Of a stretch of 64,000 nt of DNA, positions 47,226 to 54,062 are shown one piece after another. Position numbers and translations under genes: made by a program. Numbering within the stretch: position 1 is the stretch's first letter; each line of letters opens with the position of its first letter. Source of the DNA: Streptomyces sp. NBC_01298. GTDB taxonomy: Bacteria; Actinomycetota; Actinomycetes; Streptomycetales; Streptomycetaceae. The notes under the pieces are model-generated. The model made no database searches and was not told where the DNA came from. It saw only the letters and a program-made list of their open reading frames with translations. The stretch lies in NCBI RefSeq assembly GCF_035978755.1, contig NZ_CP108414.1:4464001-4528000 (forward strand), in the 5' to 3' direction.

Positions 47226-48737
47226 TCACCGGGCCGGCCCCGGGTCGGCAGGGGTGCCGACGGGGGTGCCGACGGGGGTGCCGGCCCCGGAGGCGGCCGC
47301 GGCGGTGGTCGCCGGCACCGGGGCCGGCGGCAGCGGCGCCGACGGTGAGCCGAGGACCACGGGCGCGAGCGGGGTGACCGAAGCGAGCGGAGCCGCCCGC
47401 TCGCGTTCGCGGGCCAGGGCGCGGCCGCGCAGGCGCAGGATCTGGGCGATGCCCAGGAGTTCCAGGACGAAGACCGACGAGAACGCGATGCGGTAGTTGT
47501 CCCCGGTGGCGTCGAGCAGCAGGCCCACCACCAGCAGGGTCGTCATGGAGGCGATGAAACCGCCCATGTTGGTGATTCCGGAGGCGGTGCCCTGACGGTC
47601 CGCCGGGTTGGCGGGGCGGGCGAAGTCGAAGCCGATCATCGAGGCCGGCCCGCACGTGCCCAGCACCAGGCAGAGCGCGATCAGCAGCCACATCGGGGCG
47701 TGGTCCCCGGGGTAGACCAGGACCGAGCCCCAGAGCAGGGCGGTCAGGGCCACCGTGCCCAGGGCCAGCGGGATCCGGGAGGACTGGCGGCGGCCGACGA
47801 CCTGGCCGTAGACCAGCCCGAGCGCCATGTTCGAGGCGACCACCAGTGTCAGCAGTCCGCCCGCGGTGGTGCGCGAGAGCCCCTGGGCCTCGACCAGGAA
47901 GGGCATGCCCCACAGCAGCAGGAACACCATCGCCGGGAACTGCGTCGTGAAGTGCACCCACAGGCCGAGCTTGGTGCCGGGCTCCTTCCAGGAGTCGGCG
48001 ATCTGACGCCGTACGAAGCCCCCCGCGCCGGAGCTTCCCGCGCCGGCGGCCGGCCGCGGCGCGGGCTCGTGCCCTTCCGGGTGGTCGCGCAGGAACAGCA
48101 CCAGCGGGACCAGGACGACCAGCCCCGCCACCGCGCTGCCCGCGAACGCCGGCACCCAGCCGACCCCGTGCAGCACGGGGGCCAGGACCAGCGTGGAGAT
48201 CAGGTTGCCGGCCATCCCGACCAAGCCGGCCAGCTGCGCCATCAGCGGGCCCCGGCGGGCCGGGAACCAGCGGGTGCCGAGCCGCAGGACGGAGATGAAG
48301 GTCATGGCGTCCCCGCAGCCCAGCAGGGCGCGGGCCGCCAGGGCCATCCCGTAGGAGGGCGAGAGCGCGAAGCCGACCTGGCCGGCGGTGAAGAGCACGG
48401 CGCCGAGGGTGAGCACCTTCTTGGTGCCGAGCTTGTCCACCATCAGGCCGACGGGTATCTGCATGCCCGCGTAGACCAGGAGCTGGAGCAGGGAGAACGT
48501 GGACAGCGCCGAGGCGTTCACGTGGAAGCGGTCGGCGGCCTCCAGGCCGGCGACGCCGAGGCTGGTGCGGAAGATGACCGCCACGAAGTAGACGGCGACG
48601 CCGATCGACCAGACGAGCACCGCCTTGCGGCCGCCCGGCGGGTCCCTGAAGACGGCGTGGGAGGCGGCGGGGGAAGCGGCGGAGGGCGCGGAGGAGGAGG
48701 CAGCGGAGGAGGAGGACGCGGCGGACGCGGAGCTCAT
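47226..48737 (-). CDS. MFS transporter
   Basis: 503 aa from an ATG overlapping the GntR gene's TGA. Ser/Ala-rich N-tail, then 12 predicted spans with the MFS loop signature (GLMVDKLGTKKVLTLGAVLF) and a long cytoplasmic loop between spans 6 and 7 (DHPEGHEPAPRPAAGAG). The C-terminal tail contains GTPVGTPVGTP repeats. The nearest families are organic-acid/hexuronate-type symporters; the substrate is unknown. Co-transcribed with, and probably regulated by, the GntR repressor immediately upstream. Confidence 0.88.
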   Translation of the reverse strand: MSSASAASSSSAASSSAPSAASPAASHAVFRDPPGGRKAVLVWSIGVAVYFVAVIFRTSLGVAGLEAADRFHVNASALSTFSLLQLLVYAGMQIPVGLMVDKLGTKKVLTLGAVLFTAGQVGFALSPSYGMALAARALLGCGDAMTFISVLRLGTRWFPARRGPLMAQLAGLVGMAGNLISTLVLAPVLHGVGWVPAFAGSAVAGLVVLVPLVLFLRDHPEGHEPAPRPAAGAGSSGAGGFVRRQIADSWKEPGTKLGLWVHFTTQFPAMVFLLLWGMPFLVEAQGLSRTTAGGLLTLVVASNMALGLVYGQVVGRRQSSRIPLALGTVALTALLWGSVLVYPGDHAPMWLLIALCLVLGTCGPASMIGFDFARPANPADRQGTASGITNMGGFIASMTTLLVVGLLLDATGDNYRIAFSSVFVLELLGIAQILRLRGRALARERERAAPLASVTPLAPVVLGSPSAPLPPAPVPATTAAAASGAGTPVGTPVGTPADPGPAR

Positions 48738-49393
48738 CGGGAAGACCCCCGCACCAGTTCCCCGACCCGGCCCACGTGGGCCCGTACCGCCGCGGCGGCC
48801 GTGTCGGCGTCGCCCGCGCGCAGGGCGTCGAGGATCTCCCGGTGCTCGGCCAGCGTCCGCTCCACCCGCTCGGGGTGCGCGTGCAGCAGGGCCACGCCCA
48901 TGCGGAGCTGGCGGTCGCGCAGTTGGTCGTAGAGGCGGCAGAGGATCTGGTTGCCGGCGCTGCGCACGATCTCCGCGTGGAAGGCCCGGTCGGCGGCCAT
49001 CATCGCCCCGAGCTCGCCCGCGTCGCCGAGCCGGCGCTGCTCCTCGACCAGTTCCGCGAGCCGTTCCAGCAGCCCCGCCGGGGCGGGCACGGCCCGGCGG
49101 ACGGTGAACTCCTCGACCAGCAGCCGGGTTTCGATCACGTCGGCGATCTCCTGGGCGGAGACCGCGAGGACGAGGGCGCCCTTCTTCGGGTACAGCTTCA
49201 GCAGCCCCTCGGTCTCCAGCCGCAGCAGCGCCTCGCGTACCGGTGTGCGCGAGACCCCGACGGCGACCGCGAGCTCGCCCTCGGTCAGCAGCACGCCGCC
49301 CTCGTAGCGGCGGTCGAGCACGGCCTGCTTGACGTGTTGGTAGACGCGTTCGGCAGCGGTCAGGGCGGTACCGGCGGTACTGGCGGGTGGCAT
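48734..49393 (-). CDS. GntR-family (FadR/FCD-type) regulator
   Basis: 219 aa from ATG (complement of 49391-49393). N-terminal winged helix (VYQHVKQAVLDRRYEGGVLLTEGELAVAVGVSRTPVREALLRLETEGLLKL) and an all-helical FCD effector domain with metal-type His residues (DRAFHAEIVRSAGN; HREILDALRAGD). It likely represses its operon (itself plus the MFS transporter) until an organic-acid ligand binds. The promoter region carries three 25-bp tandem repeats at 49437-49511. Confidence 0.9.
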   Translation of the reverse strand: MPPASTAGTALTAAERVYQHVKQAVLDRRYEGGVLLTEGELAVAVGVSRTPVREALLRLETEGLLKLYPKKGALVLAVSAQEIADVIETRLLVEEFTVRRAVPAPAGLLERLAELVEEQRRLGDAGELGAMMAADRAFHAEIVRSAGNQILCRLYDQLRDRQLRMGVALLHAHPERVERTLAEHREILDALRAGDADTAAAAVRAHVGRVGELVRGSSR

Positions 49394-49436
49394 GCGCACA
49401 GCATAGATACAACAGAGGTGCAAGTCGGGGGGTGTC

Positions 49437-49511
49437 CACTATGTGGACCTCACGGCACCGTCACTATGTGGACCTCACGGCACCGTCACGATGTGGACCT
49501 CACAGCACGGT
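49437..49511. repeat. Three 25-bp tandem repeats in an intergenic promoter region
   Basis: CACTATGTGGACCTCACGGC plus five bases is repeated exactly twice and a third time with three changes. The array lies between the GntR start and the 3' end of the I42 inhibitor gene, which it overlaps by 12 bp. Iterated operators for the GntR regulator, or a slippage-prone spacer, are both possible. Confidence 0.75.
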
Positions 49512-49808
49512 GACGTCCAGCACGAACTCGTCGTACGCGGCCTCCTCCGGATAGGGCGGCCGCACCTGCGCGAAGCGGATCCTGGCCCGGCCCGCCACCC
49601 GGCCCCGTACGACGTACAGCCGCTCCACCGTCGCCCCGGGCAGCGGCGGCCGTCCCGGGTCCAGCGGGGCCACCGGACCCTCCGCCACCGAGACGGCGTC
49701 CGCGTCGCCCGTCACCCGCCAGGTCCAGACGTAACCGCGCGCACCGCGCCCGGTGAGCCGCAGCTCGTACGGCTCGCCCGGCGCGAGCACCACCTCGCGC
49801 ACCTCCAC
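49500..49808 (-). CDS. Chagasin-like (I42) cysteine protease inhibitor
   Basis: 102 aa from GTG (complement of 49806-49808) behind AGGAGAGGAG. The chagasin fold elements are readable: LAPGEPYELRLTGRGARGYVWTWRV (loop equivalent of NPTTGYxW, here RGARGYVW), PGATVERLYVVRGRVAGRARIRFAQ, and the RPPYPEE loop (equivalent of RPW), ending DEFVLDVTVL. Chagasins block papain-family proteases by inserting three loops into the active site. There is no signal peptide. It directly follows the papain-like gene by 26 bp, so the two form an operon. The NPTTGY core is degenerate, so binding strength is uncertain. Confidence 0.75.
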   Translation of the reverse strand: MEVREVVLAPGEPYELRLTGRGARGYVWTWRVTGDADAVSVAEGPVAPLDPGRPPLPGATVERLYVVRGRVAGRARIRFAQVRPPYPEEAAYDEFVLDVTVL

Positions 49809-49834
49809 GCGGACCGCTCCTCTCCTGTGGCGGC

Positions 49835-51799
49835 CTACGCCGGGCCGATCACCGGCCCCTCCTGCCAGCCGGCGCCGTCGCGCCAGTAGTGCTGGAGCCG
49901 GCGGTCCGTGCGCAGGACGATCACCTCCAGGTTGAACCCGAAGCTGCCCTGGAGCATCCCGGTGACCGCCAGCACGTCGTGGCCGAAGACCGCGGAGCGC
50001 TGCCAGGCGGCGCCGCCCGCGTTGCCGCGCCACCAGTGCTCGACGCGGCCACCCCCGCCCGTCACGCACAGCTCGTAGTTCCCGGCGGTGTCCTCGTCGG
50101 CCGCCCCGTACTGCGCCTCGATCAGGCACGGCGCGGAGGTGATGCCGGAGCCGAAGACCTCGCCGGGGCGCCAGACGAACCCGTTCGGGTCGTCCCGCCA
50201 CCACAGCTGCATCCGGCCGTCGGTGCGGGTGGCGACCAGGTCGAGGTGGCGGGCGCGGGTCTGGACCAGGGCCGGGCCGAAGTGGGCGATGCCGGAGGCG
50301 AAGCGGCCGCCGTCGTTCCAGGTCCAGGGGGCGCCGTTGATCCGCCACCAGTGGCCCAGGCGGCCGTCGGCGGTGCGGACGACCACCTCGAAGTTGCCGG
50401 GCGCCCCGTAGTCGCTCTGGATGAAGGCCGGGGTCGACCCGACCGCCGCGTCGCCGGGGCCGAAGGCGCCGCCGTCGCGCCAGGCGCCACCGAAGTGCTC
50501 GTAGTACCAGTGGCGCAGCCGGCCGCCCGTGGTGACGTGCAGCGACTCCATGTTCCGGTTGTACGTGGTCCCCGTGAAGGCGGGCTGGCCCGAGGCGTCG
50601 GAGCCGAAGGTCTGGGCGCGGGTCCACGCGAAGGGGGCGTCGCCCTCGCGCCACCAGTGCCGCAGCGAGCCGGCGGTGTCCCCGCCGTCCCCGCCTTCGC
50701 CGGCTTCGCCGCTGAGCGCCGCCAGCTCGAAGTTGCGGTGGGCGCGGCCGTTGCCGCTCTCGTAGACGTTGCCGGTGTGCAGGCGGCGCTTGCTCCACGG
50801 GTCGATGTTGGTGCCCTGCAGCCCGCACTTCGCCCAGTCGTCGATCCGCACCTCGCCGTACGCGATCCGGCCGTGGCCGCCCACGTGGTAGCCGGTCCCC
50901 CAGGAGTTCTTGAACAGCCAGCAGCCGGCCGCGTCGTCGTAGCCGGTGATCAGGACGCAGTGACCGCCCGCCAGGCGGTCGCTGGTGCGGTGGTAGACGC
51001 CGGAGCCGAGGCCGAAGAAGTCCTCGTACACGTCGAAACAGGCGGTCAGCGGGCCCACCGTGTCCAGCCACACCTTCTGCTGCTCCACGTCGCCGAGCCG
51101 GACGTACCCGCTGATGCGGACGGTCCGGCCGGAGCGGTCCCAGCTCGGGGTGTACTCCGCCCGCCAGGCCTCCCGGCGATCGACGGGGGTACCGGGCGGC
51201 GGCGGCGAGTACGGCCAGCAGCCCGGGTCCGCGAGTCCGCCGTTGGTCCGGATCCAGTCCAGGGCGGCCTCGGGGCTGCCCGTCTGTCCGCAGGTCGCCT
51301 TCAGCCCGTCGTGCACGTCCCCCTCGGAGCGCTCGGCCCACACGTGGTGCTCGATGCGGGCCATCGACTCCACCAGGCCGGCCGCCCCGAACGCCCAGCA
51401 GGAGCTGCACGGGTTCTGGTCCTTCACCTTGGTGAGCCAGGGCCGGCCCCACCGGCTGCGCCAGTCCACGGCGGACGGCCGGGCGGGGGCCGCGGGCGCG
51501 GGCTCAGGGGCGTGCGCGCCGGTGTCCGCCCCCCGGAGCAACCCGTGCGCCGTCCTGCGCCGGTTGAGGTGCGGATTGCCGCTGTAGTGGCCCACGAGGC
51601 TGCGCAGATCCACCGGCGGCGCCGCCCCGGCCGGGGTGAGACCGGCCTCCGCCGTGGCCGCACCGAGCCCCAGGGCGGGTCTCGGAACGGCATCCCCGTC
51701 ACCGAGGTGCTCGCTCACCGACCACCGCGCCCCGCGCTCCGCGAGCAGGGCCCGCAGCTCTCCCGCCGTCTGGACACGCCCCTCCGACTGCTCCGGCAT
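49835..51799 (-). CDS. Papain-like (C1) cysteine protease with C-terminal propeller/lectin-like repeats
   Basis: 654 aa from ATG (complement of 51797-51799). Catalytic residues are complete: Gln128 and Cys134 in VKDQNPCSSCWAFG, His280 in GGHCVLITGYDD and Asn298 in FKNSWGTGYH. A propeptide-like N-region (about 1-105) has no signal peptide. After residue about 330 come at least five repeats of about 50 residues with a RLRHWW core (SLRHWWREGDAPFAW; RLGHWWRINGAPWTW; RMQLWWRDDPNGFVW), resembling PLL/tachylectin-type beta-propellers that bind glycans. The small downstream gene encodes a chagasin-like inhibitor. Export route and target are unknown. Confidence 0.85.
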   Translation of the reverse strand: MPEQSEGRVQTAGELRALLAERGARWSVSEHLGDGDAVPRPALGLGAATAEAGLTPAGAAPPVDLRSLVGHYSGNPHLNRRRTAHGLLRGADTGAHAPEPAPAAPARPSAVDWRSRWGRPWLTKVKDQNPCSSCWAFGAAGLVESMARIEHHVWAERSEGDVHDGLKATCGQTGSPEAALDWIRTNGGLADPGCWPYSPPPPGTPVDRREAWRAEYTPSWDRSGRTVRISGYVRLGDVEQQKVWLDTVGPLTACFDVYEDFFGLGSGVYHRTSDRLAGGHCVLITGYDDAAGCWLFKNSWGTGYHVGGHGRIAYGEVRIDDWAKCGLQGTNIDPWSKRRLHTGNVYESGNGRAHRNFELAALSGEAGEGGDGGDTAGSLRHWWREGDAPFAWTRAQTFGSDASGQPAFTGTTYNRNMESLHVTTGGRLRHWYYEHFGGAWRDGGAFGPGDAAVGSTPAFIQSDYGAPGNFEVVVRTADGRLGHWWRINGAPWTWNDGGRFASGIAHFGPALVQTRARHLDLVATRTDGRMQLWWRDDPNGFVWRPGEVFGSGITSAPCLIEAQYGAADEDTAGNYELCVTGGGGRVEHWWRGNAGGAAWQRSAVFGHDVLAVTGMLQGSFGFNLEVIVLRTDRRLQHYWRDGAGWQEGPVIGPA

Positions 51800-51985: not shown

Positions 51986-52816
51986 TCAGCTACCGGTCAC
52001 CCGCGCCGAGCGGGGCCGGGCGCGCAGGGCGGGGAGGCGGGCCCAGTCTTCGGCTCCGGACATGCCCTCGCCCAGGGCCAGGAGCGAGAGGAGCCGCACG
52101 GGCCGGCCGGCCGTGGCCGCGGCCTCCAGTTTGTGGTGGCCGTCGAGGAGGAAGTGGGTCAGGCACCAGTGCTCGCAAGGGTCCTCCGCCAGGCCGAGGG
52201 CGGACTGACACAGGTCCAAGGTGGAGATCGCCACCGCCGTGGGAACCGTTCCCCCCTCCATGAGCGCGACGTACTCCTCGACGCGCCCCTCCTTGTTCCA
52301 CGTCGGGGGAACCATGGGAACGACGAAATCGTAGAGGTGGGCGTCCGCGTCGACGGCGGTCTCGAAGGTCCGGTAGTACGGAGTGTGCGGGTACTGCGGG
52401 AGGCCCCAGAACTGATCGACCCCCCACCCCGCGACCTGTTCGTCGCTGAAGTAGTCCCCCTCCTTGCCGGGGAGGACCAGCCGGGGTTCCACCTCCAGGA
52501 GCAGCGGAAGGTACTCGCCCTCCGGCAGCAACGCGCCGAACGCCTCGATCACGCCGCCGTCATCCAGATCATCCAGGGCTCCGGTCAGCCGTTCCTGCAC
52601 GCTCTCCAGGGATAGCCTCTCCGTCGCGCCCTCCAACCGGCGGAACAGGAACGCGCACGTTCCACAGGGAAAGTTGAGCTCGAAAGCAGGCTCGTCGTCC
52701 ACCGTCAGCACGTGGCGCCGCGGCCCGCCACCGAGCTCGTGCAGTTCCATACCGAAGCGCAACCGCGCCTCGGATTCAGGGACGCCGATGGTGCGAGGAT
52801 TGTCCGTTCTGATCAT
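51986..52816 (-). CDS. Unrecognised protein with a C-terminal DGHHKLEAA motif
   Basis: 276 aa from ATG (complement of 52814-52816); a further ATG 48 bp upstream is in frame. The N-half includes ELNFPCGTCAFLFRRLEGATERLS with a CGTC pair. The C-half has YYRTFETAVDADAHLYDFVVPMVPP and FLLDGHHKLEAAATAGRPVRLLSLL. DGHH plus a following helix resembles the ParB/Srx and DUF1015/SerK type nucleotide-binding motif, but the rest does not obviously match. It may act on a phospho-substrate. Stand-alone gene, cytoplasmic. Function unknown. Confidence 0.6.
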   Translation of the reverse strand: MIRTDNPRTIGVPESEARLRFGMELHELGGGPRRHVLTVDDEPAFELNFPCGTCAFLFRRLEGATERLSLESVQERLTGALDDLDDGGVIEAFGALLPEGEYLPLLLEVEPRLVLPGKEGDYFSDEQVAGWGVDQFWGLPQYPHTPYYRTFETAVDADAHLYDFVVPMVPPTWNKEGRVEEYVALMEGGTVPTAVAISTLDLCQSALGLAEDPCEHWCLTHFLLDGHHKLEAAATAGRPVRLLSLLALGEGMSGAEDWARLPALRARPRSARVTGS

Positions 52817-52900
52817 CACGGACCGACCGTACGGGACACCGGGGATCGGCTCCGTCAACCACATGAGCGCCTGCCGTGCCCGCCCGCGAGGCCCCGGCGG

Positions 52901-52948: not shown

Positions 52949-53854
52949 CTACTGGACGGGAAGCGGTACCGGGAGGGGCGGGGCCGGGACCGGGAGCGGG
53001 GGGAGGCCCGGGAGGCCGAGGCCGGTGAGCAGGGAGACGAGGGCGGCGACCAGGTCGGTCACCACGTCCGTGGCCTTGGCCTTGGCGTCGGTGGAACAGC
53101 CGCACGGGCCGGCGGCCTTGGTGAGGCCGTCGAGGGAACCCTTGAGCTTGTCGACGGCGCCTGTGGCCAGGTCCAGGGGGCCGGCGGCGGGCTTGGCCTT
53201 GTGCGCGGAGACGGGGAGCGCGGGGGCCGCGACCGGCAGCGCCGGGGCCGCGACGGGGAGCTTCGGCGCGTCCACGGGGAGCTTCGGAGCCTCAACGGGC
53301 AGCGCCGGGGCCTCCACCGGCAGCTTCGGCGCCTCGACGGGCAGCTTCGGGGCCTCCACCGGGAGGGCGGGGGCCTCGACCGGCAGCTTGGGAGCCTCGA
53401 CCGGGAGCTTCGGGGCCTCGACGGGCAGCTTGGGGGCCTCGGCCGGGAGCTTCGGCGGGTCCACCGGGAGGTTCGGCGCGTCCACCGGCGGGACCGGTAC
53501 CGGCAGGGCCGGGGTGGCGGGCAGGCTCTTCTTCAGGTCCTCGATCGCGGCGGCGATCTTCTCCTTGAAGGCGGCCAGATCCGCTTCCGGGATCTTGCCG
53601 TCGGGGGACTTCAGGACGGCCGCCAGCAGATCGGTGATGGGTTTGAGCAGCCCGCCGAGCCCGCCCATCGCCTGTACCTGCGCGAGCAGGGCCTCGGTGC
53701 CGGGGATGGCCTTCCCGGCCGGGGCGGAAACGAAGGCCGCGGCGGCCTGCGGCTTCGCGGACGCGTGTGCGGCTGCCGACGCCAGACCGGGGGACGCGGT
53801 CAGCAGGGTCAGGCAGAGGGCGGCGGGGACGGTGTAGCGCGTGATGCGGTGCAC
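52949..53854 (-). CDS. Secreted protein with LPVEAP-type heptad repeats
   Basis: 301 aa from GTG (complement of 53852-53854) behind CAGGAGAG. Sec signal peptide at about 1-30 (ALCLTLLTASPGLASA). A helical region (about 45-110) is followed by about 12 tandem seven-residue units of the form LPVEAPK/LPVEAPA, with variants LPVDPPK, LPAEAPK and LPVAAPA. The C-terminal part has a Cys pair (PCGCS) and a Pro/Leu-rich end (GLPPLPVPAPPLPVPLPVQ). It should be exported and extended, perhaps spanning the cell wall. No anchor motif is seen. Function unknown; the repeats are clear. Confidence 0.75.
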   Translation of the reverse strand: MHRITRYTVPAALCLTLLTASPGLASAAAHASAKPQAAAAFVSAPAGKAIPGTEALLAQVQAMGGLGGLLKPITDLLAAVLKSPDGKIPEADLAAFKEKIAAAIEDLKKSLPATPALPVPVPPVDAPNLPVDPPKLPAEAPKLPVEAPKLPVEAPKLPVEAPALPVEAPKLPVEAPKLPVEAPALPVEAPKLPVDAPKLPVAAPALPVAAPALPVSAHKAKPAAGPLDLATGAVDKLKGSLDGLTKAAGPCGCSTDAKAKATDVVTDLVAALVSLLTGLGLPGLPPLPVPAPPLPVPLPVQ

Positions 53855-53919
53855 GGATCTCTCCTGTCGGGCTGTCACCTCACGCCTCGGCATGGGACGT
53901 GCCGTGGCGTGACGCGACA

Positions 53920-53933
53920 TGGGACGTGTCCCA
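53920..53933. promoter_or_regulatory. 14-bp palindrome upstream of the LPVEAP gene
   Basis: TGGGACGTGTCCCA is a perfect palindrome, with a related direct copy CATGGGACGTG 27 bp away (53891 and 53918). It lies 66 bp before the start of the secreted-protein gene. Confidence 0.45.
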
Positions 53934-54062
53934 GCCAACTCACCGACAGCCCGTCGGGCCCCGCAACCCGAGCCCCCGCACCGCCGAAGGGGACACGCCG
54001 CGCAACCGGCCTACGTACGCCCGTGACCTGCACGGACACCATCACCCTCGGGCGATGCCCCG

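Follow-up and report, generated by a model that had tools for sequence, protein, structure and literature searches.

A leaderless papain-family protease with a predicted C-terminal propeller and an adjoining chagasin-family protein in Streptomyces sp. NBC_01298

Described protease-inhibitor pairs and the Streptomyces locus

Bacterial papain-fold proteases can be encoded next to a small dedicated inhibitor gene, as in the staphopain-staphostatin and SpeB-Spi pairs and in the C10 operons of Bacteroides. The enzymes of these guard operons belong to families C47 and C10 and are exported, and their inhibitors have other folds. A comparable arrangement was found in Streptomyces sp. NBC_01298. In a window of 64,000 nucleotides (the whole stretch of DNA analysed; contig NZ_CP108414.1, positions 4,464,001 to 4,528,000), a papain-family (C1) protease with a predicted C-terminal propeller is encoded directly upstream of a chagasin-family (I42) protein, which is probably its inhibitor. 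Unlike the guard operons, this locus has a C1 enzyme that is leaderless, a likely inhibitor of chagasin fold and a predicted propeller. Because the protease lacks a signal peptide, the pair would work like the operons of staphostatin or Spi type without being a member of them. Passages of PMC3462683 give SpeB-Spi, the staphopains and the Bacteroides C10 proteases as precedent, and Spi and the staphostatins are thought there to be cytoplasmic guards.

The small protein is closest to chagasin and its relatives (ICP; MEROPS family I42, PF09394). It shares with them a profile score over the cut-off, a modelled seven-strand fold, three loops and the Arg-Pro of loop L6. It differs in carrying GARGY and RPP instead of NPTTGY and RPW, and in being encoded right behind its likely target. 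According to passages of PMC5014320 (2016), protozoan chagasins are leaderless too and keep C1A enzymes of the same cell under control, the chagasins of Pseudomonas have a signal peptide and most Pseudomonas are without C1A enzymes, and the role of bacterial chagasins was not yet elucidated. Intracellular protease inhibitors are called rare in a passage of PMC3901451. With a bacterial chagasin beside its likely cognate C1 enzyme in one cell, the question of its role becomes directly testable.

It is likely, with a probability of roughly 60%, that the leaderless chagasin blocks the leaderless protease in the cytoplasm, akin to staphopain-staphostatin and SpeB-Spi. This is based on the domain content, the intact catalytic set, the absence of a hydrophobic export signal, the strong ribosome site in the 26-nt gap and the conserved adjacency, all of which were observed. 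In the proposed mechanism, the N-terminal ~105 residues would act as an inhibitory pro-region. The chagasin would be made right after the protease and would cap prematurely activated molecules, and this cap is predicted to use a contact between R83 and D127 together with the non-canonical L2 loop, GARGY. The most tentative steps are that the protease acts inside the cell, in the cytoplasm, or once the cell has lysed, and that its propeller tethers it to a glycan or a glycosylated target. If the mechanism is correct, a further inhibitor fold is added to the protease-guard operons. The family would also offer a natural series of active and Cys-less enzymes, with and without a guard.

The protease and the small protein behind it

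The protease gene (49835..51799, minus strand) has an ATG start and encodes 654 amino acids. The initial annotation described a C1 protease with a Gln-Cys-His-Asn set, and these residues were found where it had placed them, at Q128, C134, H280 and N298. The papain-like catalytic domain (50816..51478, minus strand) is matched by PF00112 over residues 108-328, with 108.1 bits against a cut-off of 20.7 (E 9.2e-31; Pfam scan). A PDB sequence search with the protease matched cathepsins and cruzain, with E down to 8e-18. D127, just before the catalytic Gln, is shared by all 18 rows of one alignment (A2) and is nearly invariant in another (A1). Cys131 and Cys170 are conserved and sit at what we take to be the positions of a papain disulfide.

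At least five RLRHWW-type repeats had been counted in the initial annotation. Six are present, starting at residues 379, 428, 481, 530, 586 and 635, in the putative six-bladed propeller (residues 343-654; 49838..50773, minus strand). PF03984 (DUF346 repeat) matches the protease with 23.5 bits against a cut-off of 22. In the structure model of the protease (mean predicted local distance difference test score, pLDDT, 85.0; predicted template modelling score, pTM, 0.88), the six repeats appear as a lectin-like six-bladed propeller with the fold of the AAL/PLL-type fucose lectins. Among such lectins, AAL, AFL/FleA and RSL have six blades and PLL/PHL have seven. Here the six blades are fused to a protease, and the propeller alone gave no matches among PDB sequences at E up to 1. 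The modelled resemblance to fucose lectins keeps a glycan-targeted role possible.

The N-terminal region (residues 1-107; 51479..51799, minus strand) is conserved, has low hydropathy and is without a signal peptide. W26 and G44 are invariant in 30 of 30 aligned proteases. Residues 1-107 contain no Pfam domain and no Pfam pro-region match at E 0.01. Procathepsins B, H and K were compared with the model (VIA-align), and the alignments begin at model residues 1-10 and span 258-269 residues. This exceeds the ~220-residue C1 domain, the ranges being given by first and last residue only. Thus, as in the procathepsins, the catalytic domain is accompanied by an N-terminal stretch that aligns with pro-regions; unlike them, the protease has neither a Pfam pro-region match nor a signal peptide. 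From the model, residues 1-107 are likely a pro-region and the protease is likely a zymogen.

A gap of 26 nt (49809..49834, minus strand) separates the protease stop from the GTG start of the inhibitor gene (49500..49808, minus strand), which encodes a leaderless protein of 102 amino acids. The gap contains the ribosome-binding site GGAGAGGAG at 8-nt spacing from the start, in agreement with the strong ribosome site noted initially. The start is also supported by M1-E2-V3-R4, which are invariant in 24 of 24 aligned homologues. PF09394 (Inhibitor_I42) matches the small protein with 31.6 bits against a cut-off of 27.2, so both the C1 and the I42 assignment of the pair are backed by Pfam profiles over cut-off. 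In the profile search of the 9.7-Mb genome the inhibitor was the sole match to its family, and the protease was likewise the one match to its own. The inhibitor sequence retrieved from the PDB only two weak, partial and apparently unrelated chains (E 0.03-0.3). Its structure model takes up the seven-strand chagasin (Ig-like) fold, and the three loops lie where chagasin has them. All nine top-ranking PDB entries for this model belong to the chagasin family, and Foldseek ranks 1-9 agree, as expected of a chagasin-like protein.

The initial annotation had claimed the three-loop layout of the chagasins. The loops are indeed at chagasin positions, and the canonical motifs NPTTGY and RPW are absent. 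In a profile alignment that included L144, GRGARGY (L2) occupies the place of NPTTGY and RPP (L6) that of RPW. For I42 proteins, NPTTG(Y/F) in L2 and RPW in L6 are usual, not defining. In 68 aligned inhibitors, R21, G22, A23, G25, Y26, R83 and P84 are invariant, and G20 and R24 are nearly so. The loops of two far pairs are closer to canonical, with TAGF/RPW in L100 and SAAGY/RVW in L103.

Conservation of the pair and losses within it

A set of 295 same-genus genomes was searched by profile for both families. An I42 match was found in 80 genomes and a C1 match in 39; both were present in 28, only I42 in 52, only C1 in 11 and neither in 204. PF09394 and PF00112 therefore co-occur beyond chance (Fisher p 3.8e-10, uncorrected for phylogeny). 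The protease family itself was recognised in a search of 150 genomes and in the 26 C1 rows whose E was under 1e-20, after which the stretches were inspected. Three of the 26 rows (G262, G284 and G023) were other proteins and were left out. The propeller protease was identified in 23 of the 295 genomes, 21 at 75-100% identity and two, G069 and G247, at ~50%. In 20 of the 23 the I42 gene comes next, downstream and in the same orientation (the protease of G046 is frameshifted), a contiguity like that of the staphostatin and Spi operons, and the pair is thus conserved in relatives. The other three lack an intact I42 neighbour: G257 has a broken remnant (seen in the identical locus L009), and none was found in G078 and G250.

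Named genomes provided 38 loci, 36 from Streptomyces, one from an Actinobacteria record (L043) and one from Homoserinimonas. L043 falls among the Streptomyces loci and is counted with them, and I42 is present in 32 of these 37. Among 47 distinct near loci, obtained by dropping 15 duplicate proteases and the far rows L044, L057 and L100, 41 carry I42. Downstream, the locus is anchored by a gene for a GntR/FCD regulator (48734..49423, minus strand; PF07729 and PF00392 matches), a relative of which is present in 36 of the 37 Streptomyces loci. In L036, L038 and L039 this relative begins 44, 114 and 62 nt past the protease, a spacing that looks like the result of an excision of the inhibitor. A neighbour as stable as this one, together with the odd contact loops, would fit a purely historical proximity, in which the I42 protein has some other target or function. 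The arrangement recurs, however, at ~50% protease identity in the stretches of G069 and G247, where no GntR relative was found, and very little credence is given to historical proximity.

All organism-named relatives of the leaderless inhibitor are from Streptomyces, both among the best 120 of 188 and among the best 120 of 196. A homologue search with the inhibitor alignment found no distant I42 proteins in the best 120 of 196. The far protease homologues, among those listed, come mostly from sources without an organism name. In a survey of the phylum (396 genomes per family, by eye), C1 and I42 matches on one contig were not seen closer than ~10 kb, the nearest being in G569; the source genome and G173, which both carry this protease family, are the exceptions. 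The Homoserinimonas protease (L044, 5980-8205) has a long insertion in the last propeller repeats, and no I42 was found by profile within its 14 kb. It adjoins a gene of 985 amino acids that by eye resembles a LuxR-type ATPase regulator. A natural protease-inhibitor fusion was sought in P0030 (733 amino acids), the one longer near homologue, which has only longer linkers.

Other C1 proteases were also seen. L101 (G262) and L102 (G284) are same-genus proteins whose identity of 36-39% extends over the catalytic domain alone. They lie 848 and 435 nt from an opposite-strand I42 match, and these are possibly separate C1-I42 pairings. Five C1 matches occur in a distant genome of the same phylum, G474, and the four strong ones are in open frames of ~960-1490 residues.

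Several findings weigh against the blocking of the protease by the chagasin in the cytoplasm. The inhibitor loops are non-canonical (GARGY and RPP), though at chagasin positions, and to judge from the sequences this may well cost affinity. Among the best 120 of 430 protease homologues (37 near, with at least 65% identity, and 83 far), C134 is absent in 11 of the 37 near ones listed, where it is replaced by Ser in six and by Gly in five; one of these also has H280 changed. The catalytic set is complete in loci L009, L035, L039 and L093, where no intact inhibitor gene adjoins the protease.

As for the loops, passages of PMC2607524 report that wild-type chagasin inhibits cruzipain at 7.6 pM, T32A at 16, W93A at 31 and T31A at 317 pM. 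The T31A/T32A double mutant is at ~1 nM against cruzipain, but there is no such fall against cathepsin L. In the same passages R91 of chagasin contacts enzyme residue 18 and pairs with Asp18 of cruzain, and the authors suggest that this Asp18 lowers the need for W93 (PMC2607524). The odd loops are compatible with inhibition because several chagasin loop mutants stay potent and D127, the putative counterpart of Asp18, is conserved. By analogy with the R91-D18 contact of chagasin and cruzain, a contact between R83 of the inhibitor and D127 of the enzyme is predicted.

On a quick protease tree, 28 of whose 81 forks are open, the 11 Cys-less homologues and the Cys-less loci L036, L038, L042 and L046 are spread over about eight positions. 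L036 and L038 are without the inhibitor, and L042 and L046 have it. A parallel is BtpZ of B. thetaiotaomicron, described in a passage of PMC3462683, which lacks the catalytic Cys and has an adjoining inhibitor gene. L036-L038 is the sole pair whose members have diverged since losing the Cys in common. Its ratio of nonsynonymous to synonymous substitution rates (dN/dS; simple Nei-Gojobori, without error bars) is 0.24 overall, 0.20 in the catalytic domain and 0.18 in the propeller, and the range of nine active pairs, 0.16-0.31, brackets the overall value. In the N-terminal region (about 92 codons) it is 0.70, against 0.18-0.55 in active pairs. These values suggest that the Cys-less protein is still under selection, and perhaps the pro-region matters less after catalysis is lost. 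Such retention would be expected if catalysis were secondary, with the protein serving chiefly as a scaffold that binds glycans or proteins, and with the pair decaying through independent losses of Cys and inhibitor. The scattered losses of C134 are in line with this, although they are confined to near homologues (none in the 83 far ones listed). Q-C-H-N is kept in all 83 far homologues listed and in 39 of 41 inhibitor-bearing loci (one frameshifted), and a mainly scaffolding role is considered highly improbable.

A broader proposal is more doubtful than cytoplasmic blocking itself. It holds that the leaderless chagasin subfamily evolved into the private intracellular guard of the lectin-propeller protease, with loops reshaped (GARGY/RPP against D127), and that several Streptomyces lineages now carry a selected pseudoprotease with the propeller and without the catalytic Cys. 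This is possible, and is put forward tentatively.

The prediction that absence of the inhibitor goes with a dead protease failed (p 0.07, four active exceptions). Because inhibitor absence and a dead Cys are not tightly linked, a strict antidote or immunity reading is weakened, and a guard backed by the pro-region fits better. In L040 (6001-7659) and in L056, which has the same protein, the protease frame is broken near residue 557 and the inhibitor gene is still recognised downstream.

Export signals, annotation and neighbouring genes

No hydrophobic N-terminus was found among the relatives of the protease or of the inhibitor, apart from one doubtful protease row (P0110), and the earlier view that neither protein has a signal peptide is upheld. 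None of the 120 inhibitor relatives listed has one, and over their first 35 residues no value exceeds 1.13. In the protease family, hydropathy in the first 60 residues has a median of 0.85 over 121 proteins, and P0110 reaches 2.09. There are 89 I42 matches in the same-genus genomes, 19 of them within 2 kb of a C1 match. Twenty of the other 70 were sampled, mostly from the higher-scoring rows, and in each of them the domain is preceded by a hydrophobic stretch, with a best 11-residue mean of 2.11-3.34. By eye, 16 of these N-termini have a lipobox-like cysteine and four are membrane-like. Since the sampled orphan I42 proteins are hydrophobic at this end and look exported, and the paired ones are not hydrophobic there, the paired inhibitor is a separate leaderless kind, like its protease.

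The lack of an export signal on either protein is also expected of a regulated intracellular protease. In that case both proteins would be cytoplasmic only, and the chagasin would tune how active the protease is (during development, for instance) instead of protecting against accidents. That the inhibitor is dispensable in several lineages would suit a modulator. The sheath family PF04984 has no matches in the genome, so this one contractile-injection route is not seen either. However, the lectin-like propeller and Cys131/Cys170 hint at a life outside the cytoplasm, and intracellular regulation is regarded as rather unlikely. The initial annotation had also raised a toxin/immunity pair, in which the protease would be delivered non-classically to competitors, and the producer and its kin would be shielded by the chagasin. 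The effector-like layout, the constant gene order and the leaderless immunity-like partner agree with this. Pfam and NCBIfam scans of both proteins found no trafficking domain, however, PF04984 (the only apparatus family searched) is unmatched as stated, and the four loci with an intact catalytic set and a missing or broken inhibitor gene weaken the idea further. A toxin/immunity function is thus quite improbable, and cytoplasmic blocking by the chagasin is preferred.

The initial annotation knew of no described bacterial example of the repeat fusion. This agrees with a literature search (chagasin in Streptomyces or operons; papain with lectin propeller), judged mostly from titles and abstract openings, in which the pair was not described. 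In the databases the fusion is already annotated. Of the 430 protease homologues, the 120 listed all have PF00112 as a precomputed domain, in many cases together with PF26607 or PF03984. The fusion is named "C1 family peptidase" and the inhibitor "protease inhibitor I42 family protein". Both guard operons and chagasins of the cell interior are known already; the new element is that a bacterium combines the two, with these loops.

Two further minus-strand genes lie upstream of the protease gene. The first (51986-52864, minus strand) encodes a protein of 292 amino acids without a Pfam or NCBIfam match, and a relative of it was found in only one of 46 compared loci (L104). The second (52949-53938, minus strand), for which there was no Pfam match at E 0.01, has a product whose N-terminus resembles a signal and which contains about thirteen (K/A)LPVEAP-type repeats in tandem.
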